Below, in pieces: positions 572-55,855 of a DNA stretch of 62,781 nucleotides. Below the pieces are notes generated by a model that did not search any database, had not been told where the DNA came from, and worked only from the letters and a program-made list of their open reading frames with translations. The first letter of the stretch is position 1. The number at the start of each line of letters is the position of its first letter. The position numbers were made by a program, and so were the translations under genes. The DNA is from a virus, in the IMG/VR virus record IMGVR_UViG_3300020171_000437, positions 1 through 62,781 of that record, one strand, 5' to 3'.

Positions 572-789
572 TGGCGCACTCGCACACCGATCCGATTACA
601 CCGACAGGGACAGTGAACGGAGTGAATACAGTGTTCACGTTGGCCACAACCTATGTTAAGGTGCGTTACTTCGTGAACGGACTAGAGCAGTTAGAGGACA
701 CGGACTACACGGTGGCAGGAACGGTCCTGACAGTAGATCCTCCGCCGGAAACAGGAGACGAGCATTGGATACTAGGGGAGGTTGCATGA
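571..789 (+). CDS. Small beta-rich protein, paralogue C
   Basis: The 72-residue protein starts in a TAATG overlap with the previous stop. It is a compact relative of the preceding gene, sharing the P-T-G-x-x-x-G-x-N-T start, the central VNGL turn and the P-x-x-GDxxW-x-x-EV end. This kind of short beta domain is common as a repeat in phage fibre and attachment proteins; here it is a free-standing gene. Translation continues into the acetyltransferase through an ATGA overlap. No enzymatic motif is present. Confidence 0.7.
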   Translation: MAHSHTDPITPTGTVNGVNTVFTLATTYVKVRYFVNGLEQLEDTDYTVAGTVLTVDPPPETGDEHWILGEVA

Positions 790-1274
790 TCCACAAGAGC
801 GCAGATGTGCATCCATCCGCCATTATCGGTGAAGGGACTCAGATTTGGAACAATGCGCAAGTGCGCGAAGGGGCCATCATTGGCTCCAATTGTCACATTG
901 GTTCAGGGGCGCACATCGGCAAGGGCGTTCTGATTGGTGACAACTGCAAGATTCTCAACAATGCCTGCCTGTTTGAAGGAGTGACGCTAGAAGATGGGGT
1001 GTTCGTTGGGCCCGGCTCGATATTTTGTAATGATTCTTACCCAAGGGCAGTTCATGAAGATGGCGCAATCATTGAGGCGGGAGAATGGCTCCCACAGCAT
1101 TCTTATGTCGCGAGCCAAGCATCAATCGGCGCGAACGCGACCATCCTGCCCGGAGTCTTTATTGGAATTGGTTCAATGATCGGCGCGGGGGCTGTAGTTA
1201 CGAAAGATACTCAGCCATGGCGCTTGTATGTAGGCAATCCAGCAAGGGAGATACGACAATGCCTAGTGACGTAA
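786..1274 (+). CDS. WbpD-like sugar N-acetyltransferase (left-handed beta-helix)
   Basis: A 162-residue hexapeptide-repeat acyltransferase: almost the whole protein is [LIV]-G-x4 turns (for example AIIGSNCHIGSGAHIGKGV), the left-handed beta-helix fold, with the usual GAGAVVTKD and VGNPAREI near the C-terminus. In the WbpD/WlbB family this enzyme N-acetylates the 3-amino group of a UDP-2-acetamido-3-amino-uronic acid using acetyl-CoA. The start was chosen for the upstream AGGGGAGG and the ATGA overlap with the preceding gene. It overlaps the aminotransferase by 16 bases, and the next two genes complete the WbpD-WbpE-WbpB set. Exact substrate is inferred from this trio. Confidence 0.9.
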   Translation: MIHKSADVHPSAIIGEGTQIWNNAQVREGAIIGSNCHIGSGAHIGKGVLIGDNCKILNNACLFEGVTLEDGVFVGPGSIFCNDSYPRAVHEDGAIIEAGEWLPQHSYVASQASIGANATILPGVFIGIGSMIGAGAVVTKDTQPWRLYVGNPAREIRQCLVT

Positions 1275-2323
1275 AGATTGCACAACCGATCATCGGAGAA
1301 GAAGAGAAGGCAGCCGTGATGGAAGTGCTTGAGTCTGGCAACATTGCTCAGGGAGAGAAGGTCGAAGAATTTGAAGCAGCGTTTGCCAAGTATGTAGGAG
1401 CACGACACGCCATTGCCGTTTCATCTGGGACAGCAGCCCTTCATCTGGCATTGCTTGCCAATGGGGTTGGTCCCCACACCGAAGTCATTACAACCCCCTT
1501 TAGCTTCATCTCAACAGCTAATGCCATCTTGCACTGTGATGCGACAGTAAAATTTGGCGATGTCAATCCTGTGTCGTTCAATCTGACTCCGGAATCTGCC
1601 GAAGCACAGATCGGCCCATCCACACGGGCGATCATGCCGGTGCATCTCTATGGCAACCCAGCCGATCTCGATGCGTTCAGGGCGCTAGGCAATAAGCATG
1701 GATTGATGATCATCGAGGATGCCTGCCAAGCGGTGGGGGCTGTCTACAAAGGGCAGAAGATTGGATCGATCAACACGACCTGTTTCTCTTTCTATCCCTC
1801 AAAAAATATGACCACTGCCGAGGGTGGCATGGTCACAACCCACGATGATGCCGTAGCCTGGAACGTTCGCAATATGAGACAGCACGGAATGGGCGGTAAA
1901 TCAGTTGGGTTCAATTATAGATTAACCGACATTCAGGCAGCAATAGGCATCGAACAGCTAAAGAAACTCGATGAGTTCAACTCAATCCGGCGCAAGAATG
2001 CCGAGATGCTGACTGCTGGCCTGTCTGAGATAGTTATATGCCCCGTGGGGGCCGAAGAGTCTACGCACTGCTGGCACCTATACACAATTCGTTTGAAACG
2101 AAGACGGCAAACAGTTCTCAAGGCCCTCCATGAGGCAGGTATTGATGCACGGGTGTATTACGAGAAGCCGATCCATCTCTGTCCTCCGTTTAACGGGAAG
2201 ACTATCTCTCGTCCGAATGCAGAGAAACTGTCGAATAACATTATCTCATTGCCGGTCCATCCTGGTGTGACAGAAGAAAACATCGCGACAATGATCGAGG
2301 TGATTACATGCGCATTGGCGTAA
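1259..2323 (+). CDS. WbpE-like DegT/DnrJ/EryC1 sugar aminotransferase
   Basis: A 354-residue PLP-dependent nucleotide-sugar aminotransferase of the DegT/DnrJ/EryC1/StrS family, close to family length. Visible marks are SSGTAALHLAL (about 55-65), the IIEDACQA segment with D154 facing the pyridine nitrogen, and the PLP-binding lysine K182 in FYPSKNMTTAEGG. The partner-subunit segment GFNYRLTDIQAAIG is also present. In WbpE it transfers an amino group from glutamate to C3 of a 3-keto UDP-uronic acid. It overlaps both neighbours by 16 bases, so it belongs to a tightly coupled cassette. Family certain; exact sugar inferred. Confidence 0.93.
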   Translation: MPSDVKIAQPIIGEEEKAAVMEVLESGNIAQGEKVEEFEAAFAKYVGARHAIAVSSGTAALHLALLANGVGPHTEVITTPFSFISTANAILHCDATVKFGDVNPVSFNLTPESAEAQIGPSTRAIMPVHLYGNPADLDAFRALGNKHGLMIIEDACQAVGAVYKGQKIGSINTTCFSFYPSKNMTTAEGGMVTTHDDAVAWNVRNMRQHGMGGKSVGFNYRLTDIQAAIGIEQLKKLDEFNSIRRKNAEMLTAGLSEIVICPVGAEESTHCWHLYTIRLKRRRQTVLKALHEAGIDARVYYEKPIHLCPPFNGKTISRPNAEKLSNNIISLPVHPGVTEENIATMIEVITCALA

Positions 2324-3270
2324 TCGGCCTAGGGAACATGGGGCGCAATCATGCTCGTGTTCTATCCGAGATTGCTGATCTTGTTGCCGTGTGTGACACA
2401 TGTGCCGCTGCATTAGCAACCTGGCACGGCTCAGGGACTAAGTTTCTTGATCCAATGAAGATGCTGAAAGATCCTGACATGGCTCTCGATGCTGTTGTGG
2501 TAGCTGTCCCGACATCTAGACACGCTGTGATAACGATGACTGCAATCGAGGCAGGCATCGATGTCCTAGTAGAGAAGCCATTGGCTGGTAATGTTGGAGA
2601 CGCGCAGGTGCTTGTAGAGACAGCGAAAGAGAAAGGCGTCTTCCTCGCCACTGGGCACATCGAGCGATTCAACCCAGCGATCGTCGCGCTGAAAGATCGT
2701 TGGTCGCAGCTTGGCGAAGTGCATGAGATTGGCTTTGAGCGACTAGGCCCGTTCCCGGAGCATGTGCGCGATACTGGAGTCATTTACGATCTTGCCACTC
2801 ATGACTTTGATTTGCTGCGATATCTTGCTAGTCATTCTCCGATCATATCATTAGAGAGCCGATTCGTGATAGATAAAGGGATGGATGTCTCTGTCGCAGC
2901 GATTGCTCTACTAAAGGATGGCGGGATTGCAACATTCAGAGAAAGCTGGACGACCCCTACTAAGATCAGGCGCGTGACGGTATGGGGCGAGCAAGGGATG
3001 TTTGTTGCCGACCTGTTGCGTCAAGAACTGATGTTCTATGAAAACAATTATATCCCTGTTGATTGGGGAGCTATGGAGCCGTTCTTCGGAGTATCGGAGG
3101 GCGATGTGACACGGTACAAGATCAAGAAACAAGAGCCGTTAAGGCTTGAGTTGCAAGCGTTTCTTGATGCTGCTAATGGGCGAGGGAGAGACTGCCCAAC
3201 CGGGGAAGATGGACTCGAAGCCGTAAGGCTGGCTGAATGGATGAAGGAGGCCGCTGGATATGAGGAATAG
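2308..3270 (+). CDS. WbpB-like Gfo/Idh/MocA oxidoreductase
   Basis: A 320-residue NAD(P)-dependent oxidoreductase. The N-terminal Rossmann motif IGVIGLGNMG, the conserved EKP triad (residues 89-91), GHIERFNPA (about 116-124) and IYDLATHDFDLL (about 159-170) with the usual catalytic Asp and His are visible. WbpB-type enzymes oxidise C3 of UDP-GlcNAc-uronic acid, feeding WbpE and WbpD, the two genes just upstream. No UDP-GlcNAc 6-dehydrogenase (WbpA) or WbpI epimerase was found, so the host must supply the uronic acid if this pathway is right. Confidence 0.9.
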   Translation: MRIGVIGLGNMGRNHARVLSEIADLVAVCDTCAAALATWHGSGTKFLDPMKMLKDPDMALDAVVVAVPTSRHAVITMTAIEAGIDVLVEKPLAGNVGDAQVLVETAKEKGVFLATGHIERFNPAIVALKDRWSQLGEVHEIGFERLGPFPEHVRDTGVIYDLATHDFDLLRYLASHSPIISLESRFVIDKGMDVSVAAIALLKDGGIATFRESWTTPTKIRRVTVWGEQGMFVADLLRQELMFYENNYIPVDWGAMEPFFGVSEGDVTRYKIKKQEPLRLELQAFLDAANGRGRDCPTGEDGLEAVRLAEWMKEAAGYEE

Positions 3271-17104: not shown

Positions 17105-20100
17105 ATGGCAGAAGGTACAAGTCTAGGTACTGCGTACATCACGCTGATGCTTGACAAGGCTGGGTTCCAGTCACAAGTGACTGGTCTTGGCCGGACATTG
17201 ACTGGCTCTCTCGGCGGGATTGTCGGCATGACTGCGAAACTAGCTGGTGTTGGCGCTGGCCTCTATGCCGTTAAGAGAGCCATCGGATATGTCAATGATG
17301 CCTTCCTAGAGTTCGACCAACAGATGCACAACGTCTGGACGCTGACAGACCAGACCGGCGATGAAATAGTCAAGCTATCCTCTGATCTCAGAGATCTTGC
17401 ATGGCAATACAATATCACAAGCACACAGGCCGCTAAGGCCATGTACCAGATCTACTCGGCAACCTTCTATGGCGCAGACGCCATGAAGATTCTTGAAGCA
17501 TCTACCCGTGCTGCTGCGGCAGGGCTGACTGACGTATTTACTGCTGCAAACATGGGGACTACTGTTCTAAATGCCTATGGTATGGCAGCAGAAGAGATAA
17601 CTCGTGTAAATGATTTGCTCTTCACTTCAATACGGTTTGGGAAGTGCGTCACCGGAGACACCCGTGTCTTGCTGGCCGATGGTCGCTACAAGCGAATCGA
17701 CGAACTAGAAGGCGGGGCTAAGGTCGTTTCTTACGATGGCAGATCGTTCTTGCCGATGGATGCCACATGGGTAGACCAAGGGACAAAGCCAACCGTCCGG
17801 CTGGAGACACATCTTGGCCGAGAAATCAAGACAACATGGAACCATCCTTATCTCACAGATGACGGATGGAAGAAGGTATCAGAGCTAAAGATTGGTGACC
17901 AGATTGCCATTCCTTCATCTCTTCCATTCTTCGGAGATAGACATGTTCACAAAAGCAGGGCGGCATTCTTGGGCCTATGGCTTGCTGAGGGAACTGGAGG
18001 TGCTTACTCGCCAGAGATAACGACAGACACATATGGGGCGCAAGTAACTGAGTGGGCAGAAGAATTTGGATGTAGTGTGTCGCGCAAGACAACAAGCACA
18101 GCAAGATGCCCCACATATCTTATGACTAGCGGGAGAGGAAATAGCGTTAATCCCGCGATGACTTTTCTCCGCGAGTTGGGGTTAGAGGGATGTCGCGCGG
18201 GAACAAAACACATCCCAGAAGAAGTCTTCTCTTGGGATCGAGAGTCAATTGCAACGATGTTGCATTGGTACTTCAATGGAGATGGATGGCTTGCTGACAG
18301 TAGGAAATATGAAAGTGGGGCTGGCTTCCATCTAGGATTTGCATCTAGTTCGAAGCAATTAGTCAAAGACATCTCGCACTTGCTTCTCCGATTTGGAATC
18401 ATGGGAAGAATCAGACGGAGACAAGAGACAAATTCATGGACTTGGGAGAGCAACCGATACAACGAAGTCAGACGATTTGTAGACATGATCGGGATTGATA
18501 GACCGATGAATGCCTTGGTCCCGACGCATGAGCCGAAGAAAACGCGGAAACGATATGGAGTAATCGATTATGACAAGATCGTCGTCATCGAGGCCCAAGA
18601 AGAGGAGCGCGTTTACGACCTATGTGTCCCCCATCTACACAACTTTGTAGCTGAAGATATCCTTGCTCATAATACAACCTACGGAGAACTCGCAGATCAA
18701 TTCGGTCGTTTGGCAGGAATTGCAGCCCCTGTTGGTGCGAGCATTGACGAGATGGCTGCCGCTATCGCAACACTCACCCGCCAGGGGATCACAACTGACT
18801 GGGCAGTCACTTCGTTGCGACAAACCCTGATGAAGATGCTACAACCCACCAAAGATCTTGAGAAGGCAATCAATGATCTTGGATTTGCATCTGGTGGTAC
18901 GATGGTCCGCACTCTCGGATTTGCCAAGTCACTTGGTGAGATCAAGAAGTGGGCAGACCAGAATGGCGTGGCGCTGGACAGGATGTTTACCAACGTCCGT
19001 GCTGTTACTGCTGTCCTGCCTCTTGCTACCACAGCCGCTAAAGGCTTCGCACTCGACCTTCAAAGGATGGCCGACTCTGCCGGGGCATCTGATGTAGCAT
19101 TTGGCAAACAGACACAATCATGGGCATATCAGATGTCGATTTTGAAATCTCGGCTAAATGACGTTGGCATTTCTCTAGGGAAAGTTGTCACGCCAGCTAT
19201 TTACGGATTCACAAAGGGCGTTTTGGCCTTGCTCAAACCTCTCGGTGGCATGTCCGAGTTGTTGAATACAATGGGAGTTCCGTTTCTTCTTAAATGGGCA
19301 GCGACTCTCGGCACAGTTGTCATAGGGCTAACTGTTCTGACCAAGGCATTTCGTGCTCTTAACGTTGCTATGCTTGCTTCTCAGGCTTTTATGTTCTCCA
19401 CGCTTGGCGTTGGTGGAGGATTGTCTGGGGCGATAATGAAGGGTATGTTCACAGCCGGTGGTGGATCAATGCTGGCTGGTCTCGGGATTGGGGCCGCCGG
19501 TCTTGTAGCAACGTCAATTGGGCTTAAAGGTCTTGTAGAACTTGAATTGGTGGCAGGGCAAATAGTCGGCGGCGAAGAAGTTAAGGGGGCAATGAAGGCG
19601 TCGCTGATGAGCATCTTCGGGAGTGTGGTCGGTGGGGCCATCTTCGGGAAGATGTTCCTTGGAGGACTGGTTGGATCTGGAGTTGGAGCGGCTATCGGTG
19701 CCGGAATAGCTGCGGCGGCGACAGCCTCAATCTTTGTCTACCATATCATCAAGAAGGCAGCCGAAACACACGAAGAACGTGTTTCTGTCGTTAGCGACAC
19801 GATGAGAGCATGGGGCGCATTACCTTACGAACTAGAATCTGGCCCAGAATCAATTACTGAATTGAGAGATACGTTGTCGCGTCTTAACCCAGAGATAGAA
19901 AGAACAACTGCGTTTTTTAATGCAGTTCAAAGTGCAGTTGAAGATTTATACAAGATGCGATTTGATTCTCTCTTCGAGCCTGGGAAATGGGAACTAGAAG
20001 ATAAATACCGCGGAGTCAGAACTCTTGCAGACATAACCGGCATTGCATTCCCTACGGAGGATGTAACCCGCGTCGCGCAAATGTGGAAGAAATCATTGTC

Positions 20101-23100
20101 TGACGCAAATCTAGAGGCATTGGCTGGATTGTCTGATGCCATTCTGTCTAATTTGGAAGATGAAACCAGAGAGATCATTATCGGGATGCAAGATGTCGCA
20201 TTGGAGGAACTCAGCAGAACAGAATGGGGAGATTTCAGTGAGTTTATCGTTAAAACGATGACAGAGTGGGCAGAGAGTGTCGGGGCCGTTCTTGAACAAG
20301 GTGACATTATTGAACATGCAAATATGTTAGCAAATGCTCTTTTCGCACTCAAAAAGGTTCCCGCAGGAGACGTTGAGGCAGCAGAGGAAGCAGCCGCTGG
20401 ATATCTGAAGGTGAAGGAATCATTTGCTGAACTGATGAAGGGGCTCGACGATGAAGAGCGCATTGCAGCGATGTTCCAAGTTATCCCCATCGCGCTAGAA
20501 GCAAGCATGGGCGAATTAGTTGATGTCATGGGCATATCTACAGCCGATCTTATTGCGCGAGTTTTAGCGGAGATCGAAGCTGCAACGCAGCCTCCAATCC
20601 CGTCTACACCTATTCCTGCCGTACAGGAGCAAGTAGACAGAGCGAGAAAAGAATTTGACGAGCTATTTGCATCCCTAGAATCTGGCGACTTCATGCTAGG
20701 GCAGGCGACTACAATGTTCGATGACTTGTCTGCAATGGCAGCAGAATGGACAAAGAATGCAGACATAGCCGAGATCACAGGCAGGGCTTATGCCGAAATG
20801 CTGCAAGTGCTTGCCGACTACATGAATGAAATGATCTCTTCTTCCGTCCTGTCTGCTATTCAAGAACTAATCAAGAGTTACGAAGAGGCAAAGGCCGCGT
20901 ATCTTGATTCCGCAGAAGCGACACTTGAGCGGGCGATGGCAGAAAAAGATTTGACTGGCATCTCAGAGAAACTTGCTGGTTATCAAGAACTTCTAGGGCT
21001 TTCGGCAGAAGACCTTACAGGCGACTGGAAAGAGATGGTTGATTGGCTAGAGTCTGTCGGGATAGCGATCAACAAGATTACTGTCTTGCCCTTTGCAAAA
21101 CAGATAGAGGTATACCAGGCGGCGCTGGCAAGGGCGTTAGAGGCGGGCAACATTGCAGCATCAGTCACAGCCTTGTCTGGTTTGAGCGGGATATACAACA
21201 CGATGGTAGCGAGTGTCGATTTGCTGACAGCTGCTGGCCTGGAAGGATCAGGAGCTCTCAACGTATTGATACTAGGCTTAGAGAAGCTGTATGGATTCAC
21301 AAGGGATGCAGCAGATGGAATAGGGAAACTTAGCGACGAAATCAACAATATGCTAGGGGCAATCTCTGGAGCTATCGGGGAAATGTCATCCGCCGTAGGA
21401 TTAAGATCACCAGAGATTGCCTCATTGCTGAATGTAGTGCCAGCCTTGCTATCGGCAGGAGACGCGCTTTGGAAGGTGTTCGGTCCTGACGGGTTGTATG
21501 AAAAGAGCCTTGAGAAAGCAGCGTCGGCAGGTGCTGCTGCAAGGGCATCAGAAATTACGAACAAAATTCTATCAGCAGGAATGGCTATGTGGTCTAAGAT
21601 GCCCGGTGCTGGCGGGGCAGACCAGATTGCTGCTGCATCTGCCGCAACAGTGGATGTGAAACTTGCTGCTGATGCGGCAGCAGAATCAGCCATTGCTTCA
21701 ACAGTCGCAGCGATTGCTGGCGTAGCTACAGGGCTTGGCGCTGTCTTTGCGATTGTAGGGGCAGTAATACAAGTGTTTGATGTGTTTGCTGCGGCGAGGA
21801 AGAGACGAGAGGAAGAGCTGGCCGCGGCAGCAGAGGAACTGAAACAGAATTTTCTTAATCTCGCAGATGCCGCCATTACAGCAGCCTCTTCTCTGTGGGA
21901 TTTGGCACAACAGGCAGAGAGCCTTCAGGCATTACAGTCCGGGTGGATGGAAGTTCAGGGAGCGATCATCACGGCGCTGCTTGGATTCCTGTGGCCGATT
22001 GCTGGCATATTTGAACTGATAATGGACTCTCTTGAGGATAGCGTTGACGCCATAGAGGAAGAGGCAGAGGCCCGACGAGCAAGCCTGAACGTGCCAACTG
22101 GATACAAGGTGCGTCGTGCTGAGTGGATGGCGGCGATGCCAGGACAGCCAGGAGACCTGATAGATGATTCGACGGTGCGAGACGATATTGAAGAGACGCT
22201 GACATGGTGGCAAGAGATTGTGCGGTCATTTGGAGCAGAGCTAGATAATGCCATTGCCCCAATACGTAACTTCATCGACAGGATGAACGACCTTTGGAAG
22301 AAGTTGGCACCGGCGATCATCAATGCCGTTATCCCAATGCTCAACACGTTTGGCTGGACTCTTGGCGAGATCGCAACGTGGATGGAGACAGTGTTTGCAC
22401 CAGACCTAGAGAAGTTTTCTGCAGGATTCAGACGATTCTGGGAAGAGAAGGTTGATCCATTCTGGAAAGAGGATATGGGGCCGCAGATCGCAGTGTGGCT
22501 TCAGAGAGTCTATGACTGGTTCGCGCCGGTTCTTACATTCATGGAGAACAAGGTGTGGCCATGGCTTGTAAATGATGTGTGGCCAGCGATCAAGCCGTAT
22601 GTGGAAAGCATTCTTGGTATGCTGGAAGACTGGGCGCGATGGATTGACGCGAACTGGGACACCATCAAAGTCAATTTGCTAGAAAATCTGACGACATGGC
22701 TTGGCAATCTTGGCGAGTCAATCAGGCGAGCGGCTGAATATATTCTTGATCTGCTAGGAATAGCATCACCATGGACAGGAACAACGACGCAAGTTCCTGC
22801 ATCTGGCGGAGTGTACCAGACACCATCTGGCCCTGGCCCATCTGAAACGATGTGGGAGCAAGTTCTGACGCCTGGGCCGAATCAAGGGACGTATGTAGTG
22901 CCTGCTCCGACGACTAGCCAATCAGACGCTGCAATCATTGCGGCACATGGTGGATTTGGCGGCGTTATGGGATCAACTGGACAATGGGTTCCTTATTCAA
23001 CATGGAATGGAGTTCCTGTATCTCAACTAGCCAGGGGGGGCAAGCTGCTGACTGATGGCCTTGTGTTTGGGCATCAGAATGAGATTATGGTTCCTGCCAG

Positions 23101-23278
23101 CGTGTCTCCCCTGCCATCTTCTATCGGCCTGAACAATTCTACAGAGATGGTCAATCACGTTATCGTGACGCTTGACGGGCGTGTGTTGACCAAGCAGATC
23201 ACTCGTGAAAAGAGACATAGCGAGAAACTGATGACTGGCTCTCCAAACGGACGGCGCTGGGAGCGGGTGGGCGCATGA
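17105..23278 (+). CDS. Tape measure protein, interrupted by an intein
   Basis: The largest gene: 2057 codons, about 1714 residues after removal of the intein (residues 181-523). The N-terminus is helical with GGIVGMTAKLAGVGAGLYAV; the conserved tape-measure block (SIRFGK joined to TTYGELADQFGRLAGIAAPV and EMAAAIATLTRQG) spans the splice point. Hydrophobic stretches occur around residues 720-880, long helices fill the centre, and there is a Pro/Thr/Gly-rich tail end. It sets tail length, by the usual ~0.15 nm per residue roughly 250 nm, and is probably injected with the DNA. It follows the G/GT chaperones and overlaps the next gene as ATGA. Confidence 0.93.
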   Translation: MAEGTSLGTAYITLMLDKAGFQSQVTGLGRTLTGSLGGIVGMTAKLAGVGAGLYAVKRAIGYVNDAFLEFDQQMHNVWTLTDQTGDEIVKLSSDLRDLAWQYNITSTQAAKAMYQIYSATFYGADAMKILEASTRAAAAGLTDVFTAANMGTTVLNAYGMAAEEITRVNDLLFTSIRFGKCVTGDTRVLLADGRYKRIDELEGGAKVVSYDGRSFLPMDATWVDQGTKPTVRLETHLGREIKTTWNHPYLTDDGWKKVSELKIGDQIAIPSSLPFFGDRHVHKSRAAFLGLWLAEGTGGAYSPEITTDTYGAQVTEWAEEFGCSVSRKTTSTARCPTYLMTSGRGNSVNPAMTFLRELGLEGCRAGTKHIPEEVFSWDRESIATMLHWYFNGDGWLADSRKYESGAGFHLGFASSSKQLVKDISHLLLRFGIMGRIRRRQETNSWTWESNRYNEVRRFVDMIGIDRPMNALVPTHEPKKTRKRYGVIDYDKIVVIEAQEEERVYDLCVPHLHNFVAEDILAHNTTYGELADQFGRLAGIAAPVGASIDEMAAAIATLTRQGITTDWAVTSLRQTLMKMLQPTKDLEKAINDLGFASGGTMVRTLGFAKSLGEIKKWADQNGVALDRMFTNVRAVTAVLPLATTAAKGFALDLQRMADSAGASDVAFGKQTQSWAYQMSILKSRLNDVGISLGKVVTPAIYGFTKGVLALLKPLGGMSELLNTMGVPFLLKWAATLGTVVIGLTVLTKAFRALNVAMLASQAFMFSTLGVGGGLSGAIMKGMFTAGGGSMLAGLGIGAAGLVATSIGLKGLVELELVAGQIVGGEEVKGAMKASLMSIFGSVVGGAIFGKMFLGGLVGSGVGAAIGAGIAAAATASIFVYHIIKKAAETHEERVSVVSDTMRAWGALPYELESGPESITELRDTLSRLNPEIERTTAFFNAVQSAVEDLYKMRFDSLFEPGKWELEDKYRGVRTLADITGIAFPTEDVTRVAQMWKKSLSDANLEALAGLSDAILSNLEDETREIIIGMQDVALEELSRTEWGDFSEFIVKTMTEWAESVGAVLEQGDIIEHANMLANALFALKKVPAGDVEAAEEAAAGYLKVKESFAELMKGLDDEERIAAMFQVIPIALEASMGELVDVMGISTADLIARVLAEIEAATQPPIPSTPIPAVQEQVDRARKEFDELFASLESGDFMLGQATTMFDDLSAMAAEWTKNADIAEITGRAYAEMLQVLADYMNEMISSSVLSAIQELIKSYEEAKAAYLDSAEATLERAMAEKDLTGISEKLAGYQELLGLSAEDLTGDWKEMVDWLESVGIAINKITVLPFAKQIEVYQAALARALEAGNIAASVTALSGLSGIYNTMVASVDLLTAAGLEGSGALNVLILGLEKLYGFTRDAADGIGKLSDEINNMLGAISGAIGEMSSAVGLRSPEIASLLNVVPALLSAGDALWKVFGPDGLYEKSLEKAASAGAAARASEITNKILSAGMAMWSKMPGAGGADQIAAASAATVDVKLAADAAAESAIASTVAAIAGVATGLGAVFAIVGAVIQVFDVFAAARKRREEELAAAAEELKQNFLNLADAAITAASSLWDLAQQAESLQALQSGWMEVQGAIITALLGFLWPIAGIFELIMDSLEDSVDAIEEEAEARRASLNVPTGYKVRRAEWMAAMPGQPGDLIDDSTVRDDIEETLTWWQEIVRSFGAELDNAIAPIRNFIDRMNDLWKKLAPAIINAVIPMLNTFGWTLGEIATWMETVFAPDLEKFSAGFRRFWEEKVDPFWKEDMGPQIAVWLQRVYDWFAPVLTFMENKVWPWLVNDVWPAIKPYVESILGMLEDWARWIDANWDTIKVNLLENLTTWLGNLGESIRRAAEYILDLLGIASPWTGTTTQVPASGGVYQTPSGPGPSETMWEQVLTPGPNQGTYVVPAPTTSQSDAAIIAAHGGFGGVMGSTGQWVPYSTWNGVPVSQLARGGKLLTDGLVFGHQNEIMVPASVSPLPSSIGLNNSTEMVNHVIVTLDGRVLTKQITREKRHSEKLMTGSPNGRRWERVGA
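17645..18673 (+). mobile_element. Intein with LAGLIDADG homing endonuclease
   Basis: A 343-residue in-frame insertion in the tape measure gene. It starts with Cys1 in CVTGDTRVLLADGRYKRIDE (splicing block A) and has TTWNHPYLT (block B, with the structural His). It ends with DLCVPHLHNFVAEDILAHN, the terminal His-Asn of blocks F and G, followed by Thr as +1 extein residue. The centre holds two LAGLIDADG-like helices, FLGLWLAEGTGG and LHWYFNGDGWLA, so it is a homing-competent type if active. Removal restores the motif FGK-TTYGELA. Confidence 0.95.
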
Positions 23279-41198: not shown

Positions 41199-42012
41199 CT
41201 TCATCCTCCTCAAATAGTCCGGCAAACTCTTTTGGATCTCTCGTAAGCGATCTGTTCGGCGTTCCGTTCGTGCTCTTGCGGCCACCAGCGTCCCATCTCT
41301 TAGCGGCGTTTACGTTGTTCTCAAACTTCGTTGGTCGGAATAGTGTTTCCGGCGTCAAGTATTTCTCCATCTCCGGATTGCCAAGCCAATCTGCAACCTT
41401 GAAGTCGATCATCAGCTTACAATCATCAAATGAGAACTTCTCAGCAAGTCGTGCGTGAATGTTCTCTCTGGATGCTTTGCTATGACGATAGGCAGCTTTT
41501 GATTTCGTGTTCAGATAGTCAATGATTGAATCAGTTTCGGCGAAGTCGACAGAAGTTTCCTGATCCTGATCCTGTTCCTTTCTCTGATCCTGTTCCTGTT
41601 CCTTGTCGTATACGGTATCGATAGGGTATCGATAGGGTATATCTAATTCGGAGTAGCGTTCGAGAAACTGCCCTATTAAAGGGCTTTTGTGCAATCCTTC
41701 TAAATGTGTCCCGATGTTTTTCAGCAATTTCCTGGAATGGCTCTGATAACGGAACATATTTACTACCCAAATTAGGTTGGATATGGTATCGATACGCACC
41801 AGATACCCTATCGATAGGGTATCAATCCCTTTGAGAACATCTGCTGTTTTTAGCCCTGTTTCGTGTGAAATGGTAGATGTCGGCACATAATATAGCCCCG
41901 AAAAATGTGCGTGAGGCGACGTGATGAAATAGAGAAAGAGGAGTTTATTCTCTGGCGATAGTTGTTTTACTTTGGGGTCTGTCCAGAATCTTGCGTCTAT
42001 AGTTCGGTACAT
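41173..42012 (-). CDS. Replication initiator / replisome organiser
   Basis: A 279-residue protein. The N-terminal ~100 residues (FWTDPKVKQLSPENKLLFLY, VLKGIDTLSIGYLVRID) resemble the winged-helix domain of phage replication organisers. A Gln/Glu/Asp-rich linker (~135-155) follows. Residues ~165-240, IIDYLNTKSKAAYRHSKASR to EKYLTPETLFRPTKFENN, match the conserved phage C-terminal domain of DnaD/replisome-type proteins. Iteron-like DNA repeats lie within the gene, as in lambda O. Works with the DnaC-like loader downstream. Confidence 0.85.
   Translation of the reverse strand: MYRTIDARFWTDPKVKQLSPENKLLFLYFITSPHAHFSGLYYVPTSTISHETGLKTADVLKGIDTLSIGYLVRIDTISNLIWVVNMFRYQSHSRKLLKNIGTHLEGLHKSPLIGQFLERYSELDIPYRYPIDTVYDKEQEQDQRKEQDQDQETSVDFAETDSIIDYLNTKSKAAYRHSKASRENIHARLAEKFSFDDCKLMIDFKVADWLGNPEMEKYLTPETLFRPTKFENNVNAAKRWDAGGRKSTNGTPNRSLTRDPKEFAGLFEEDEDEISETDC
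41614..41823 (-). repeat. Iteron-like repeats inside the initiator gene, candidate origin
   Basis: TATCGATA occurs four times (41616, 41627, 41787, 41809). Two copies lie in a direct repeat of TATCGATAGGG, and one forms the centre of a perfect 22-base palindrome (GATACCCTATCGATAGGGTATC, 41802-41823). Such repeats inside an initiator gene are the pattern of lambdoid and related origins. Confidence 0.65.
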
Positions 42013-42290
42013 TGCCCATCACCTATCTTCTCAAGCAAGCAGTCGTGGAAGAAATCTGCACCAATATGTTTGTATGCAAATTTAGATGACTCTCTGTTGC
42101 ATAGCGAGTGTAGTTGCCGATGGCACGATGGGCACAATCCAAGCAGGTTGTCTCTGTCGTCACCTCCGCCAACATTGCGAGGAACAATATGATGCAACAG
42201 ATCCATATCTGCTGTTTTGCATATCGCGCATTTTCCATTCTGTTCTTTGAGGATTAACAGGTATCTTTTTACTCGTTTGCTGTAAGGCAC
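41997..42290 (-). CDS. HNH endonuclease
   Basis: A 97-residue protein that is little more than an HNH fold: CAICKTADMDLLHHIVPRNV, then DNLLGLCPSCHRQLH. A GTG start eight bases after GGAGG is used. It overlaps the initiator by 16 bases. In this operon position it could be a homing enzyme or a nicking nuclease for replication or packaging. Confidence 0.8.
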   Translation of the reverse strand: MPYSKRVKRYLLILKEQNGKCAICKTADMDLLHHIVPRNVGGGDDRDNLLGLCPSCHRQLHSLCNRESSKFAYKHIGADFFHDCLLEKIGDGQCTEL

Positions 42291-42319
42291 TATGTCTACC
42301 TCCTACAGTAGGTTAGCGA

Positions 42320-42376
42320 ACGGCCCGCACCGTCTGTAGGACGGGCGAGACAGCGTCAGCCCACGGGTTGGGCCGT
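42320..42376 (-). other. Structured intergenic element before the HNH gene
   Basis: In the 95-base gap between two leftward genes, ACGGCCC and GGGCCGT can pair over 43 bases. Inside are a CCGTC/GACGG hairpin and a short CCCA/TGGG hairpin, giving a possible three-way junction in the RNA leader. It may be an attenuator, processing site or small RNA. Confidence 0.45.
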
Positions 42377-42385
42377 CCACAAACC

Positions 42386-42658
42386 TTATTCTATCACATC
42401 CTGTGGATCAGGGACAACTACCCTATGCTGCACTGGGGAGAAGTCTGAACAACATGTTTTGTCCGCCGTGAAACATCTTTCTGGATCATTGATCCGTCCG
42501 CGTTTTTTGCAAAACTGGACCATTCTCGGATCATCTTCGTAGAGAACATCCCTCATCCAGAACACGCGGTCGCCGCTGAGAAGTTGCTTCCGGGCAGTAA
42601 AGTGATCTTCATAGTTCAGATGTTTACAACCGCTGAACGTTACTGTTACAGAATTCAT
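42386..42658 (-). CDS. Cys-rich small protein
   Basis: A 90-residue protein with scattered Cys and His (GCKHLNYEDHFTAR, FCKKRG, CFTADKTCC) that could hold one zinc. AGGAGG precedes the ATG. Function unknown. Confidence 0.55.
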   Translation of the reverse strand: MNSVTVTFSGCKHLNYEDHFTARKQLLSGDRVFWMRDVLYEDDPRMVQFCKKRGRINDPERCFTADKTCCSDFSPVQHRVVVPDPQDVIE

Positions 42659-42873
42659 CACTCCTCCTTGTCCAACTCAACCTCTTGAAGCTCGACTACC
42701 GGCGCACCTTCTGCAAACCGTTCGGCCTCCTCGAGTGTGGCAAACACCGGCAACGCCCCTACCTGTCCATCACACCACTTCAGCTTGAGAAAAGGCAGCT
42801 TGAACGGCAGATTGCTCTCGACTTCCATCTCTGTCCTAATCGTGCCGACAGCGTAGAATACTCGTCGCTCCAT
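42658..42873 (-). CDS. Small hypothetical protein
   Basis: A 71-residue beta-alpha protein (RRVFYAVGTIRTEMEVESN, GALPVFATLEEAERFAEG) with a strong AGGAGG upstream and one-base overlap with both neighbours. The pattern resembles small DUF-type phage proteins with a YkuJ-like layout, but this is not firm. Confidence 0.55.
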   Translation of the reverse strand: MERRVFYAVGTIRTEMEVESNLPFKLPFLKLKWCDGQVGALPVFATLEEAERFAEGAPVVELQEVELDKEE

Positions 42874-43037
42874 CACTCCTCCTTCTTCCCTATCTTCGGC
42901 ACAGCACACACCGCGACGATTGCGAAGATGCCGAAGAAGCAGCCCAGCAGAAACCATCCACCGCCACTACGGCCCTTCTCACTTGCGATGTACGCACACA
43001 GCGCCCCTGACAGCAACCAAATGAATAGAAAGGCCAT
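42873..43037 (-). CDS. Small two-segment membrane protein (54 aa)
   Basis: Encodes 54 residues: MAFLFIWLLSGALCAYIA, then GGGWFLLGCFFGIFAIVAVC and a KKEE tail, i.e. two membrane helices in a hairpin. TAATG and TGATG overlaps connect it to both neighbours, which supports it despite its size. Function unknown. Confidence 0.6.
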   Translation of the reverse strand: MAFLFIWLLSGALCAYIASEKGRSGGGWFLLGCFFGIFAIVAVCAVPKIGKKEE

Positions 43038-43198
43038 TACTCATCACTCTCCTTCTTCTCCTCAAAGTCATGCTCCCCGCCAGCGGAACAGTTATTCGCA
43101 GAAGGGATTACAGTAGCCCCGGCGTCCTGTAGCATCGCGAGAAGCATCAGCCTTTTCAGAGATTTGCCACACTTGTTGCAGCATTTCGTATCTGACAT
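43037..43198 (-). CDS. Small zinc-ribbon protein (53 aa)
   Basis: Encodes 53 residues with CCNKCGKSLKRL at the N-terminus, half of a zinc ribbon, a further Cys in NNCSAGGEH and an acidic end. Its start overlaps the stop of the Cas4-like gene by one base. Function unknown. Confidence 0.6.
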   Translation of the reverse strand: MSDTKCCNKCGKSLKRLMLLAMLQDAGATVIPSANNCSAGGEHDFEEKKESDE

Positions 43199-48609: not shown

Positions 48610-48895
48610 CCCCCTCCTAGCAGCCCTTAAACTAAGACAAACATCCTTAAACCATAGGAAATGCCCAGTGGCTCTACATAAACCCCCCCACTACCAAAAC
48701 TATATAGCCCTACCAAAACTATATAGTTTTCTGGAATCTATGGAGTTTTGGGGGGCGAAGACACTCTGCACTCCCTATCTTGCAGCGCAAATCGGCAGAC
48801 CCTCTAATATCTCGTACCTGCCTCTGCAATCTTCGCCCCCCTCCCCTTTTTCAAGCCTCTCAGCTTCCACCTCCCCCCCACTAAAGGAGTAATCT
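48610..48895 (+). other. Intergenic stretch with operator-like repeats
   Basis: C- and A-rich sequence. It contains the repeats described separately and the AAAGGAG of the next gene. A 99-codon frame from 48593 crosses it, but its composition (Pro/Ser/Leu-rich, low-complexity end) and the repeats inside argue that this is regulatory DNA. Confidence 0.5.
48691..48750 (+). repeat. CTACCAAAACTATATAG repeats, left arm of an inverted pair
   Basis: CTACCAAAACTATATAG occurs twice, 19 bases apart, and the second continues into the perfect palindrome AAAACTATATAGTTTT (48715-48730), then CTGGAATCTATGGAG. The same order recurs in reverse orientation at 50093-50147, upstream of the leftward regulator. 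Confidence 0.8.
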
Positions 48896-51710: not shown

Positions 51711-51924
51711 GATCCGCCCATGAATAACGCCCTTTTTTCGCCAGATTTTCGCCGTTATGGCGTCAAACCGGCCCAAGCTCGATTTGGTACATTCGGTACA
51801 TTGTGCCATGTGTGCCAATCCAGATCCGGCACATTGGCACACGTGTGCCAGTGTACCATAGTCTAAGGGACAACTGTCACCACAAGATAGTGGACAAAGT
51901 TGCTGTTAGAATAGGTCACAGGAC
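51711..51924. other. Divergent control region without genes
   Basis: Between divergent promoters: first TCGCC-type repeats and a T-run (51740-51775), then nested inverted repeats (listed separately), then an A-rich stretch. No reading frame with a ribosome site is seen. Confidence 0.65.
51785..51858. repeat. Nested inverted repeats, operator or origin candidate
   Basis: Contains a perfect 16-base palindrome TGGCACACGTGTGCCA (51835-51850), an inverted pair TGTGCCAAT/ATTGGCACA (51811 and 51833) and an outer pair TGGTACA/TGTACCA (51785 and 51852). GTGCCA appears three times and GGTACATT twice. It is centred between divergent promoters. Confidence 0.75.
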
Positions 51925-52986: not shown

Positions 52987-53282
52987 TGCCTATTCACACA
53001 CTATAAAGCGAATACATTATAGTATAAAATGGGACCCTAAAGTCCAAACGACCCCCCCCAGCGCTTCGCGCATCAACTTCTCCGCGCAGATGAGTCCCGA
53101 TGTTTCCCTTAGTTTACCTTTCAGCGAGAGGCGCATGATATTATGTAGTTTCATTTAGGGGTGGGGGTGGGGGCATAATGCGGGGATGATTTTCATGGTG
53201 GGTGGGGGGGTGGGTGTGGCAAGTTTGACGTTTACCCGAGTTTCTGATACACTATTGTTATGGAGGGTGGGGGGTGGGAGAC
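52987..53282 (+). other. Non-coding stretch with G-tracts
   Basis: AT-rich start (ATACATTATAGTATAAAATG), then C- and T-rich parts, then three groups of G-runs on the plus strand (around 53157-53175, 53200-53215 and 53262-53279) that could form G-quadruplexes. A promoter at 53225-53253 lies between the second and third group. No gene seen. Confidence 0.6.
53225..53253 (+). promoter_or_regulatory. Rightward promoter in G-rich region
   Basis: TTGACG, 17 bases, TACACT with TGA before the -10. Confidence 0.72.
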
Positions 53283-53498: not shown

Positions 53499-53560
53499 TT
53501 GACATTGGTTAGTGGATGACGTATGTTATTATTGAAATGAGAAACCAAAGAGATTATACT
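53499..53560 (+). promoter_or_regulatory. Tandem promoters before a candidate structured RNA
   Basis: First TTGACA, 17 bases, TATGTT (53499-53527). Then TTGAAA, 17 bases, TATACT (53532-53560). The second should start transcription near 53567. No ribosome site or plausible gene start follows for ~490 bases. Confidence 0.75.
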
Positions 53561-53566
53561 CAGAAC

Positions 53567-54050
53567 ATCCGCGCAGTCCGGCGAGACCCATCAGCGGTCG
53601 AATCTTTCTCATTTCACGCCGGGCTGCCGTCTGTTTTGAGCAGCGACAAATCCAGTCTAGTAGGTGAGGTTATGACCCCGCCTTGCAAAGCAGACGCTGT
53701 GGGGCGTTCTTTGCTAACACGACGTGAAGAAACTGGGCAACGAAGGTTCTTTTCTACGTTCAACCTCAAAATGAACGCACCGGTTAAGCCGGACCATATT
53801 CAAGATGGTGGTAACGGAAGATTCTGTTCACGCGAATACTTTCCCACCCAGACGAGGGCCGTGCGTTGTGTAACAACACAGAAGCGGATGGTCGATAACA
53901 GCTTACTAGATTCCCACACTGCGAAGAAACTAACCGACGCCCCAATCTAAATCCAAGGCTTGGGTTAATTCAAGAGCTCTCCGCAGGTTTCCACGGGGTC
54001 CAGGGGTCTAAGTAATTTACTACTAGAAGTAGAGGCAAGCGTATAGGTTT
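53567..54050 (+). ncRNA. Candidate large structured non-coding RNA
   Basis: About 480 bases after tandem promoters. Helices visible by eye: 53573-53583 with 53617-53627 (11 bp, one U-G) enclosing GACC/GGTC; a hairpin 53685-53714 (GCAAAG/CTTTGC plus GACGC/GCGTT); ACGT-GAA-GAA with TTC-TTC-ACGT (53722-53759, bulged); CCGG-TTAAG-CCGG at 53780-53792; GTTGT/ACAAC at 53865-53877; CCCAA/TTGGG at 53941-53964. A 144-codon frame crosses it but starts before the transcription start and has no ribosome site. Could be a GOLLD- or ROOL-like phage RNA or a new class. Ends are approximate. Confidence 0.45.
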
Positions 54051-54058
54051 GGAGATGA

Positions 54059-54172
54059 ATGATGAAGAAACCTGAGCGCAAAGCCATGAAGAAAGAACAA
54101 AGAGGGCGATGTTTTTATTGCGGGACGAAGCTCATAGATGATTCCCATTTGGTAAATGTTTCCGTTATTTGA
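54059..54172 (+). CDS. Small basic protein with CxxC (37 aa)
   Basis: Encodes 37 residues: Lys/Arg-rich start (MMKKPERKAMKKEQRGR), then CFYCGTKLIDDSH, half of a zinc ribbon, and an abrupt end. GGAG lies before it. It may be a truncated zinc-finger gene. Confidence 0.45.
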   Translation: MMKKPERKAMKKEQRGRCFYCGTKLIDDSHLVNVSVI

Positions 54173-54197
54173 CACTCCCCCCATTTTCTGATATACT
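54169..54197 (+). promoter_or_regulatory. Consensus rightward promoter
   Basis: TTGACA, 17 bases, TATACT with TGA before the -10, about 26 bases before the next gene. The -35 overlaps the stop of the preceding small gene. Confidence 0.88.
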
Positions 54198-54223: not shown

Positions 54224-54694
54224 ATGAAGACTGAGGCGATTAAGGCAATCTTGTCCGCATTACAGGAATACGCTGGGCCGTTAGAGGAGCAAGAGGAAGA
54301 AGTGCTCGTAGCACTTGCCGAACTCGCCGCCCTTGAGAAGCAGGTCGGGTGGCTGAGACAGGCGCTAGAGTTCTGTTCGGCGCATCTAACAAACGATCCA
54401 TTGGCCGCGCATGAGAGAATCAGGGCAGTCCTTTTTACTGCGCCTAGCGGGAAGGCGCTGAAGGATATAAGGATTACCGATGGCGGCAAGGAAACTACTA
54501 ACGTGCTGGTCGATATCGAGAAGCTACGTGAAGCGTGTACAAGTCTTGAAATGGCACCAGCAGGCCCAAACGAGATCTATCGATGTCTTCTGTGCGACCA
54601 CCATTCTCTGCGTCGTGATGGAATTCGACACGCTGACAACTGCTGGCTTGGCAACATTCTGAAGACGGCGAGGGAAGGGGGAGAGAATGTCTGA
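54224..54694 (+). CDS. Coiled-coil protein with C-terminal zinc motif
   Basis: A 156-residue protein: acidic leucine-rich N-terminal helix (GPLEEQEEEVLVALAELAAL), middle helix, and CLLCDHHSLRRDGIRHADNC, which fits a Cys2-His-Cys zinc site. ATG six bases after AAGGAGG. Overlaps the Lar-like gene by 8 bases. Confidence 0.6.
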   Translation: MKTEAIKAILSALQEYAGPLEEQEEEVLVALAELAALEKQVGWLRQALEFCSAHLTNDPLAAHERIRAVLFTAPSGKALKDIRITDGGKETTNVLVDIEKLREACTSLEMAPAGPNEIYRCLLCDHHSLRRDGIRHADNCWLGNILKTAREGGENV

Positions 54695-55157
54695 GTTGAA
54701 GTCGTGCCCGTTTTGTGGGGATAAAGATCCACTCGTCGAGGCAGACGAAGTTGACGACGGTATGTCCGTGGTGCGTTGTATCGGGGTCCGATGTGGAATC
54801 CGTGTCGGCTTTTTCATGTCTGAAGATGAAGCTATCACCGCCTGGAACACCCGCGCCGATGAAGCCCAGGTCCGCAGAGAGACAATAGAGAAGTGTATCA
54901 CAATCATCTCGCAGAACACACCGATGGAAGGATGCTATGGGTGTGAAACTAATTTATACGAGAAGCTCCGCGCGCTCGCCCCCGACAGCGGCAAGGTGAT
55001 TGATGCAACAGTTTACTACCCTGGCAAATATGGGGCTCACAAGCCTGTAGAGGCCGCCGAAGAAAACGCCGAATTCTTAGCACATTTCAATGCTGCTTCA
55101 CCTCATTTGGTCAATGAGCTGAGAGAGGCGTTAGGTTTAATCAAGCTGCCAGAATAG
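54687..55157 (+). CDS. Lar-like restriction alleviation protein, N-terminal zinc ribbon
   Basis: A 156-residue protein. Residues 1-55 match the Lar family pattern: ELKSCPFCGDKDP, a CIGVRCGIRVGF pair, EDEAITAWNTRADEA. Lar proteins of Rac prophage modify type I restriction; phage members may protect incoming DNA. The C-terminal ~100 residues are an extension with CYGCETNLYEKL and DATVYYPGKYGAH. A second Lar-like gene is 0.4 kb downstream. Confidence 0.75.
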   Translation: MSELKSCPFCGDKDPLVEADEVDDGMSVVRCIGVRCGIRVGFFMSEDEAITAWNTRADEAQVRRETIEKCITIISQNTPMEGCYGCETNLYEKLRALAPDSGKVIDATVYYPGKYGAHKPVEAAEENAEFLAHFNAASPHLVNELREALGLIKLPE

Positions 55158-55163
55158 TGGATC

Positions 55164-55550
55164 ATGCCGGCACTGAACTACCAACAATGGAAGGCTGAGA
55201 AGGTCAAGTCTGGCGAGTGCGTGCAGACGATCCGGGCGCAGCGCAAGCGTCCATTTCAAGTTGGGGATCGATTGTACCACTACACCGGGATGAGGACGAA
55301 GGAGTGCAGGAAGCTACTCGAAAACGAGTGTCTCCAGGCACTAGACATCATGATCGACGGCGTTTGTGTGGTGATCGACCACGGAATTCCTTTGGATGCT
55401 GACCAACGGGAAATGCTGGCACAGGCTGACGGGTTCGCTTCTTACGACGACATGGAAGCATGGTTCGGTGAATCTCACGGGTTCCCGTTCAACGGACAAC
55501 TCATCCTGTGGGAGTTCACAAGTGAAGGAGGAGTGAAATGCCTGAGTTGA
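55164..55550 (+). CDS. ASCH-domain-like protein
   Basis: A 128-residue protein. The stretch GECVQTIRAQRKRPFQVGDR followed by LYHYTGMRTKECRKL is the conserved face of phage ASCH/PUA-like proteins, which bind RNA or modified bases. The rest is alpha/beta with an acidic helix. Sits between two Lar-like genes. Confidence 0.75.
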   Translation: MPALNYQQWKAEKVKSGECVQTIRAQRKRPFQVGDRLYHYTGMRTKECRKLLENECLQALDIMIDGVCVVIDHGIPLDADQREMLAQADGFASYDDMEAWFGESHGFPFNGQLILWEFTSEGGVKCLS

Positions 55551-55855
55551 AACCATGCCCGTTCTGCGATGCCGATTCATACTCTATCCGAGTTGAGACG
55601 TTCGGCATCAAGAACCAGCTACATCGGGCTGGGTGCGGGTCTTGCCTTGCTGAGGGGCCGCTATGTGAGAGCGAAGAAAAGGCGATTATTGCCTGGAACG
55701 TCCGTCCTGACGAAGCCCGTGTTCGCCGTGAGACAATCAAGGAGTGTGCCTCAGTATTGACAGAGAGCGCGAACCCCTTCACGGGAATAAATGCTTCTGT
55801 TGTCGGGGCGTTATATGCAGCGGCGAGAGAGTTGCTTGATATGATTGAGGTGTGA
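55538..55855 (+). CDS. Second Lar-like protein
   Basis: A 105-residue paralogue of the Lar-like gene upstream: ELKPCPFCDADSYS, CGSCLAEGPLCESEE, IIAWNVRPDEARVRRETI. The WN-R-DEA-VRRETI-EC stretch is shared almost word for word, so one arose by duplication. AAGGAGGAG precedes the ATG. Confidence 0.78.
   Translation: MPELKPCPFCDADSYSIRVETFGIKNQLHRAGCGSCLAEGPLCESEEKAIIAWNVRPDEARVRRETIKECASVLTESANPFTGINASVVGALYAAARELLDMIEV

Follow-up and report, generated by a model that had tools for sequence, protein, structure and literature searches.

We propose that a stretch of an uncultured phage genome is transcribed into a structured noncoding RNA of about 400 nt, read from the plus strand behind tandem sigma70-type promoters and belonging to no known family, and we put the probability of this reading at a little over one half. 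The proposed transcript (53534–53945, plus strand) is delimited by promoters and fold, and its 3' end is uncertain. According to the folding predictions, the first ~110 nt are the sole well-supported module and the body is uncertain. The features of the stretch are read from its sequence, and from them we infer its transcription, fold, stability and function. The preliminary description had suggested a large structured noncoding RNA; the noncoding character and a structured 5' end hold up on codon statistics, strand-specific folding, a potential pseudoknot and promoter placement, whereas the word "large" is weakly supported, the 3' three quarters folding little better than shuffled sequence. 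Counted against the noncoding RNA reading are the lack of a homologue, the weak folding of the 3' part, the lack of a terminator and the presence of mutually exclusive helices.

The window, by which we mean the whole 62,781-base stretch of DNA analysed, is a complete IMG/VR virus record and, judged by its genes, appears to come from an uncultured tailed phage. The candidate is located in an accessory arm made up of small genes; its upstream neighbour is a gene of 62–65 codons (53274/53283–53471), and downstream an operon runs from 54224, preceded by the promoter (54169) that scores highest in the contig. The cassette at 54224–55855 consists of small genes (158 aa, a Lar-like zinc protein, 128 aa and 105 aa), contains internal duplications and recurs in rearranged form, next to other genes, in two phages from sample 3300020171 (L002 and L003); we read it as a shuffled accessory module. 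At the contig's left end (765–3270) there are sugar-modification genes, named by eye as acetyltransferase-like, DegT-like aminotransferase and Gfo/Idh-like dehydrogenase, and the 2057-aa tape-measure-like protein encoded at 17105–23278 has in its first quarter what by eye resembles an intein segment (CVTGDTRVLLADG ... HN).

The two tandem promoters with consensus spacing that had been claimed are both found, with 10/12 matches each: P1 (53499–53527, plus strand) reads TTGACA-17-TATGTT, and P2 (53532–53560, plus strand) reads TTGAAA-17-TATACT. A weighted promoter scan of the whole contig, both strands included, places P1 11th and P2 5th. If transcription is taken to begin 7 nt past the -10 hexamer, P1 would start (~53534) at the 5' strand of a 12-bp stem and P2 (~53567) just before an 11-bp stem; that sigma70-type transcription takes place from either is something we infer from these motifs only. 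No intrinsic terminator is predicted near 53950–54060. Two other promoters of the region, at 53224–53253 and 54168–54197, have a longer block in common (TTTGAC...TTTCTGATAYACT, 77% across 30 nt), which suggests that they are coordinated.

The strongest evidence for structure comes from the 5' end. The 11-bp helix described earlier is present with its arms at 53573–53583, just after the predicted P2 start, and 53617–53627; it contains one G.U pair and has a pairing probability of 0.99. It is part of a complete 82-nt hairpin (53559–53640, plus strand) of 9 + 2 + 11 bp with a further 4-bp hairpin inside, whose free energy of -39.0 kcal/mol compares with -20.7 (sd 3.2) for dinucleotide shuffles (z -5.73, 0/200 shuffles as low). 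Among 5973 84-nt windows in the contig it is the lowest, in a comparison where the hairpin's offset was fitted and the other windows were taken at grid positions. The earlier note missed a further element, first described here: a perfect inverted repeat of 12 nt with its 5' arm at 53533–53544, at the predicted P1 start, and its 3' arm at 53605–53616 on the plus strand. The 12-bp helix it could form crosses the 11-bp helix, and zero bases separate their 3' arms, creating a potential coaxial pseudoknot. In a comparison of all crossing pairs within 130 nt, these two helices make the strongest coaxial pair on the plus strand (-43.2), the best such pair in 24 shuffled genomes reaching -41.9 (gap ≤2). 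The two can coexist, with pseudoknot loops of 28 and 21 nt; judging from the geometry, formation of the 12-bp stem probably excludes or strains the lower 9 bp of the hairpin, because just 14 nt are left to bridge the stack.

Evidence for the rest of the stretch is less compelling. The fold of 53533–53960 has a z of -2.63, with 2/100 shuffles as low, and -4.1 was obtained when 25 shuffles were run separately; folding over the whole stretch is strand-specific, with z from -2.6 to -4.1 on the plus strand vs -0.1 on the minus strand, as an RNA transcribed from the plus strand should show. The 3' part (53641–53945) reaches only -1.81 with 6/100 shuffles as low, and in a 380-nt scan the region ranks 17th among the 267 windows scored (496 in the contig), 16 of the 266 others being better; because of these two results, we regard a large ornate RNA as weakly supported and not established. 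A long-range helix between 53654–53681 and 53884–53912 on the plus strand, which is a single-sequence prediction only, has a probability of 0.77–0.88 in the transcript starting at P2 and competes with a pairing of 53656–53663 and 54020–54027. The bulged hairpin that had been described at 53685–53714 (plus strand) is found at that place with 6+6 bp, a 2-nt bulge and a probability of ~0.77; it competes with the pairings 53628–53638/53686–53696 and 53700–53708/53936–53944. Several strong helices of the model are thus mutually exclusive, and the predicted fold is ambiguous from a single sequence. Beyond it, 54000–54060 is unstructured (z 0.52).

Other parts of the contig also attracted attention. 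The second most stable hairpin region, 51760–51860 (z -6.45), lies between divergent genes, is built from TGTGCCA/GGTACA repeats and is probably an operator or origin-like site. The noncoding region 48650–48893, with direct copies of CTATATAGTTTTGGTAG and runs of G, is self-complementary on both strands (z ~-6) and, because of this symmetry, likely a DNA-level element. On the minus strand, GC-rich stem-loops at 42295–42400, without an Rfam match, lie just upstream of a small gene for an HNH-like endonuclease (41997–42290). Crossing helices at 42290–43045 were considered as a further RNA candidate and rejected, as that stretch is a row of small genes.

The stretch carries no protein-coding signature by codon score, period-3 signal, family matches or relatives. 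The 144-codon frame crossing it (53516–53950, plus strand) had been noticed earlier as starting upstream of the start site of the second promoter; it does cross the stretch, and in fact begins upstream of the predicted starts of both promoters. Its mean codon log-ratio of 0.007 is below the lowest of 54 real genes (0.042; mean 0.143, sd 0.046) and within the range of spurious frames (-0.031, sd 0.080), and among windows of 144 codons taken from real genes just 0.3% have a lower score. Its period-3 value is 0.9 vs a gene median of 3.84, 1 of 30 genes being about as low. It has zero family matches in Pfam, PHROG and NCBIfam, and no relatives of it were found in viral or genome contigs; its single-sequence fold has a pLDDT of 31.9 vs 45.9 for a neighbouring orphan gene, which is weak evidence. 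Spurious frames of about this length are numerous in the contig and such a length is not rare by chance, and we judge the frame to be spurious. Genes in the other frames of the stretch were considered and dropped.

Searches for known RNA classes were negative. Kinship with GOLLD and ROOL had been hinted at, and found no support: the covariance-model search against all Rfam families, these two included, gave zero matches at E≤5 in the region and none at gathering score in the contig. The ROOL model (RF03087) had no match at E≤10, in a search in which no positive control matched either. GOLLD and ROOL are often located near phage tRNA islands; the 62.8-kb contig contains no tRNA genes. ROOL is a phage-encoded noncoding RNA of several hundred nucleotides with pseudoknots that assembles into a homo-oligomeric nanocage (PMC12286853). 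The candidate resembles it in being phage-encoded, noncoding, several hundred nucleotides long and potentially pseudoknotted, but differs in lacking a model match and a tRNA island and in having significant structure only in its first ~110 nt. GOLLD members are often >800 nt long and have a conserved 3' region (PMC12286853); the candidate is likewise phage-encoded, noncoding and large, yet at ~400 nt it falls short of that length and is without an Rfam match. There is some likeness to the msr-msd RNA of retrons with an HNH partner, as the frame following the candidate is weakly similar to a retron-associated HNH family; a retron RNA was nevertheless dropped as a reading, given the absence of a reverse transcriptase (RVT_1) from the contig, in a search where control genomes matched, and the lack of an Rfam retron match. 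That the stretch is a divergent member of a known large class (ROOL, GOLLD, group I/II intron, retron RNA or HEARO/omega RNA) beyond the reach of its model is therefore very improbable on these negative results, even if in size, phage context and pseudoknot it broadly resembles such RNAs.

Relatives of the stretch itself were equally elusive. Searching it with blastn against phages and plasmids gave no homologue. The one of the weak hits that was followed, a 21-nt match in a Bradyrhizobium phage, was rejected, as it lies in what by eye is a zinc-finger-like stretch and the sequence on either side of it gives no better alignment than shuffled sequence. Nothing was found when viral contigs were scanned for peptide patterns from two frames of the RNA, or genome contigs for those from the 144-codon frame; no relative emerged from an exact 29-mer of the stretch, from peptide-pattern scans with the neighbouring genes or from a terminase scan of genome contigs, and a paralogue elsewhere in the contig was considered and dropped. 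Among the relatives of the phage that were found via the 158-aa gene and terminase, none carries the RNA according to DNA and covariance searches. The L002 and L003 phages share the downstream operon (71% and 44% protein identity) and are without a detectable copy; the two nearest relatives are fragments of 21.8 and 15.8 kb with ~65–80% DNA identity over structural or replication genes, and their homology to the window stops before the position of the RNA. The lineage of this phage is rare, and the RNA is a single-sequence candidate.

Two alternatives involve the frames of the region. The stretch could be a long structured 5' leader acting in cis, as an attenuator, a riboswitch-like element or a translational control, with a ~38-codon frame at 54059–54175 (plus strand) as its first target. 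This is the next frame in the same direction and the first after the RNA, and as no terminator is predicted in between, transcripts from P1 and P2 would run into it; its start (RCFYCG) is HNH/zinc-ribbon-like and resembles HNH proteins (TIGR02646, E 0.008–0.025). The order of promoter, structured untranslated stretch and frame is that of structured leaders and riboswitches, but no known riboswitch matched and the structure lies at the transcript start, ~100–500 nt from the start codon and separated from it by the unstructured 54000–54060. Moreover, the similarity of the frame is weak and below all curated family cut-offs, its codon score is noncoding-like, it looks truncated, and the next real operon has its own promoter at 54169; on balance, we find a leader rather unlikely. 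We consider it improbable that the stretch is an orphan protein gene with unusual codon usage and partly accidental structure, most likely the 92-codon frame from the ATG at 53672 (53672–53950, plus strand). Contrary to the earlier claim that the ~490 bases after the promoters lack any gene start with a ribosome site, this ATG is preceded by AGGTGA at standard spacing, as good as in ~2.4% of the contig's ATGs, and an open frame extends across most of the stretch. However, with a codon score of -0.019 and a period-3 value of 0.34, the frame is worse than the 144-codon one on both measures, and only 0.6% of equal-length windows of real genes score as low; it has no family and no relative, and the low pLDDT of the 144-codon frame adds weak evidence against it.

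The remaining alternative places the function in the DNA: the 12-nt repeat flanking P2 could provide repressor half-sites, the hairpin being a by-product, or the locus could be a replication or recombination site. One repeat arm shares bases with the P2 -35 hexamer, the centres of the two arms are separated by 72 bp, a spacing like that of looping operators, and the 82-nt hairpin is also stable alone on the minus strand (z -3.57). Against this, further copies of the 12-mer in the contig do not exceed chance, both wobble pairs of the hairpin, G.U on the plus strand, would be mismatches as DNA or on the minus strand, and the crossing helices make one gapless pseudoknot. We hold a DNA element to be unlikely.

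If the stretch is indeed a structured noncoding RNA, the stable hairpin and the extreme 5' end of P1 transcripts could join in a coaxial pseudoknot, and transcripts from either start, P1 or P2, would have their 5' end held in a helix with no free 5' tail. In bacterial RNA decay, a helix-bound 5' end protects from 5'-end-dependent decay (RppH/RNase E); the RNA should be stable because both predicted starts sit at the 5' base of a stem. The 12-bp stem would form only in P1 transcripts, straining or excluding the lower 9 bp of the hairpin, and which of two folds arises could thus depend on the promoter used. The most likely role of such a stable RNA, and this is a guess, would be in trans, as a scaffold, sponge or regulator. 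The bolder claim that it represents a new class of large structured phage RNA (~400 nt), unrelated to ROOL and GOLLD, with its 5' end in a coaxial 12+11-bp pseudoknot and two promoters giving alternative folds, is possible but doubtful.

To our knowledge, few large structured phage RNAs are known, and their functions are open. For now, the candidate is chiefly useful as something to look for by RNA-seq and, through homologue searches, in larger sets of metagenomes. If the reading is true, a further, unrelated large phage RNA with its starts at the bases of stems would provide a compact system for probing the function of such molecules.
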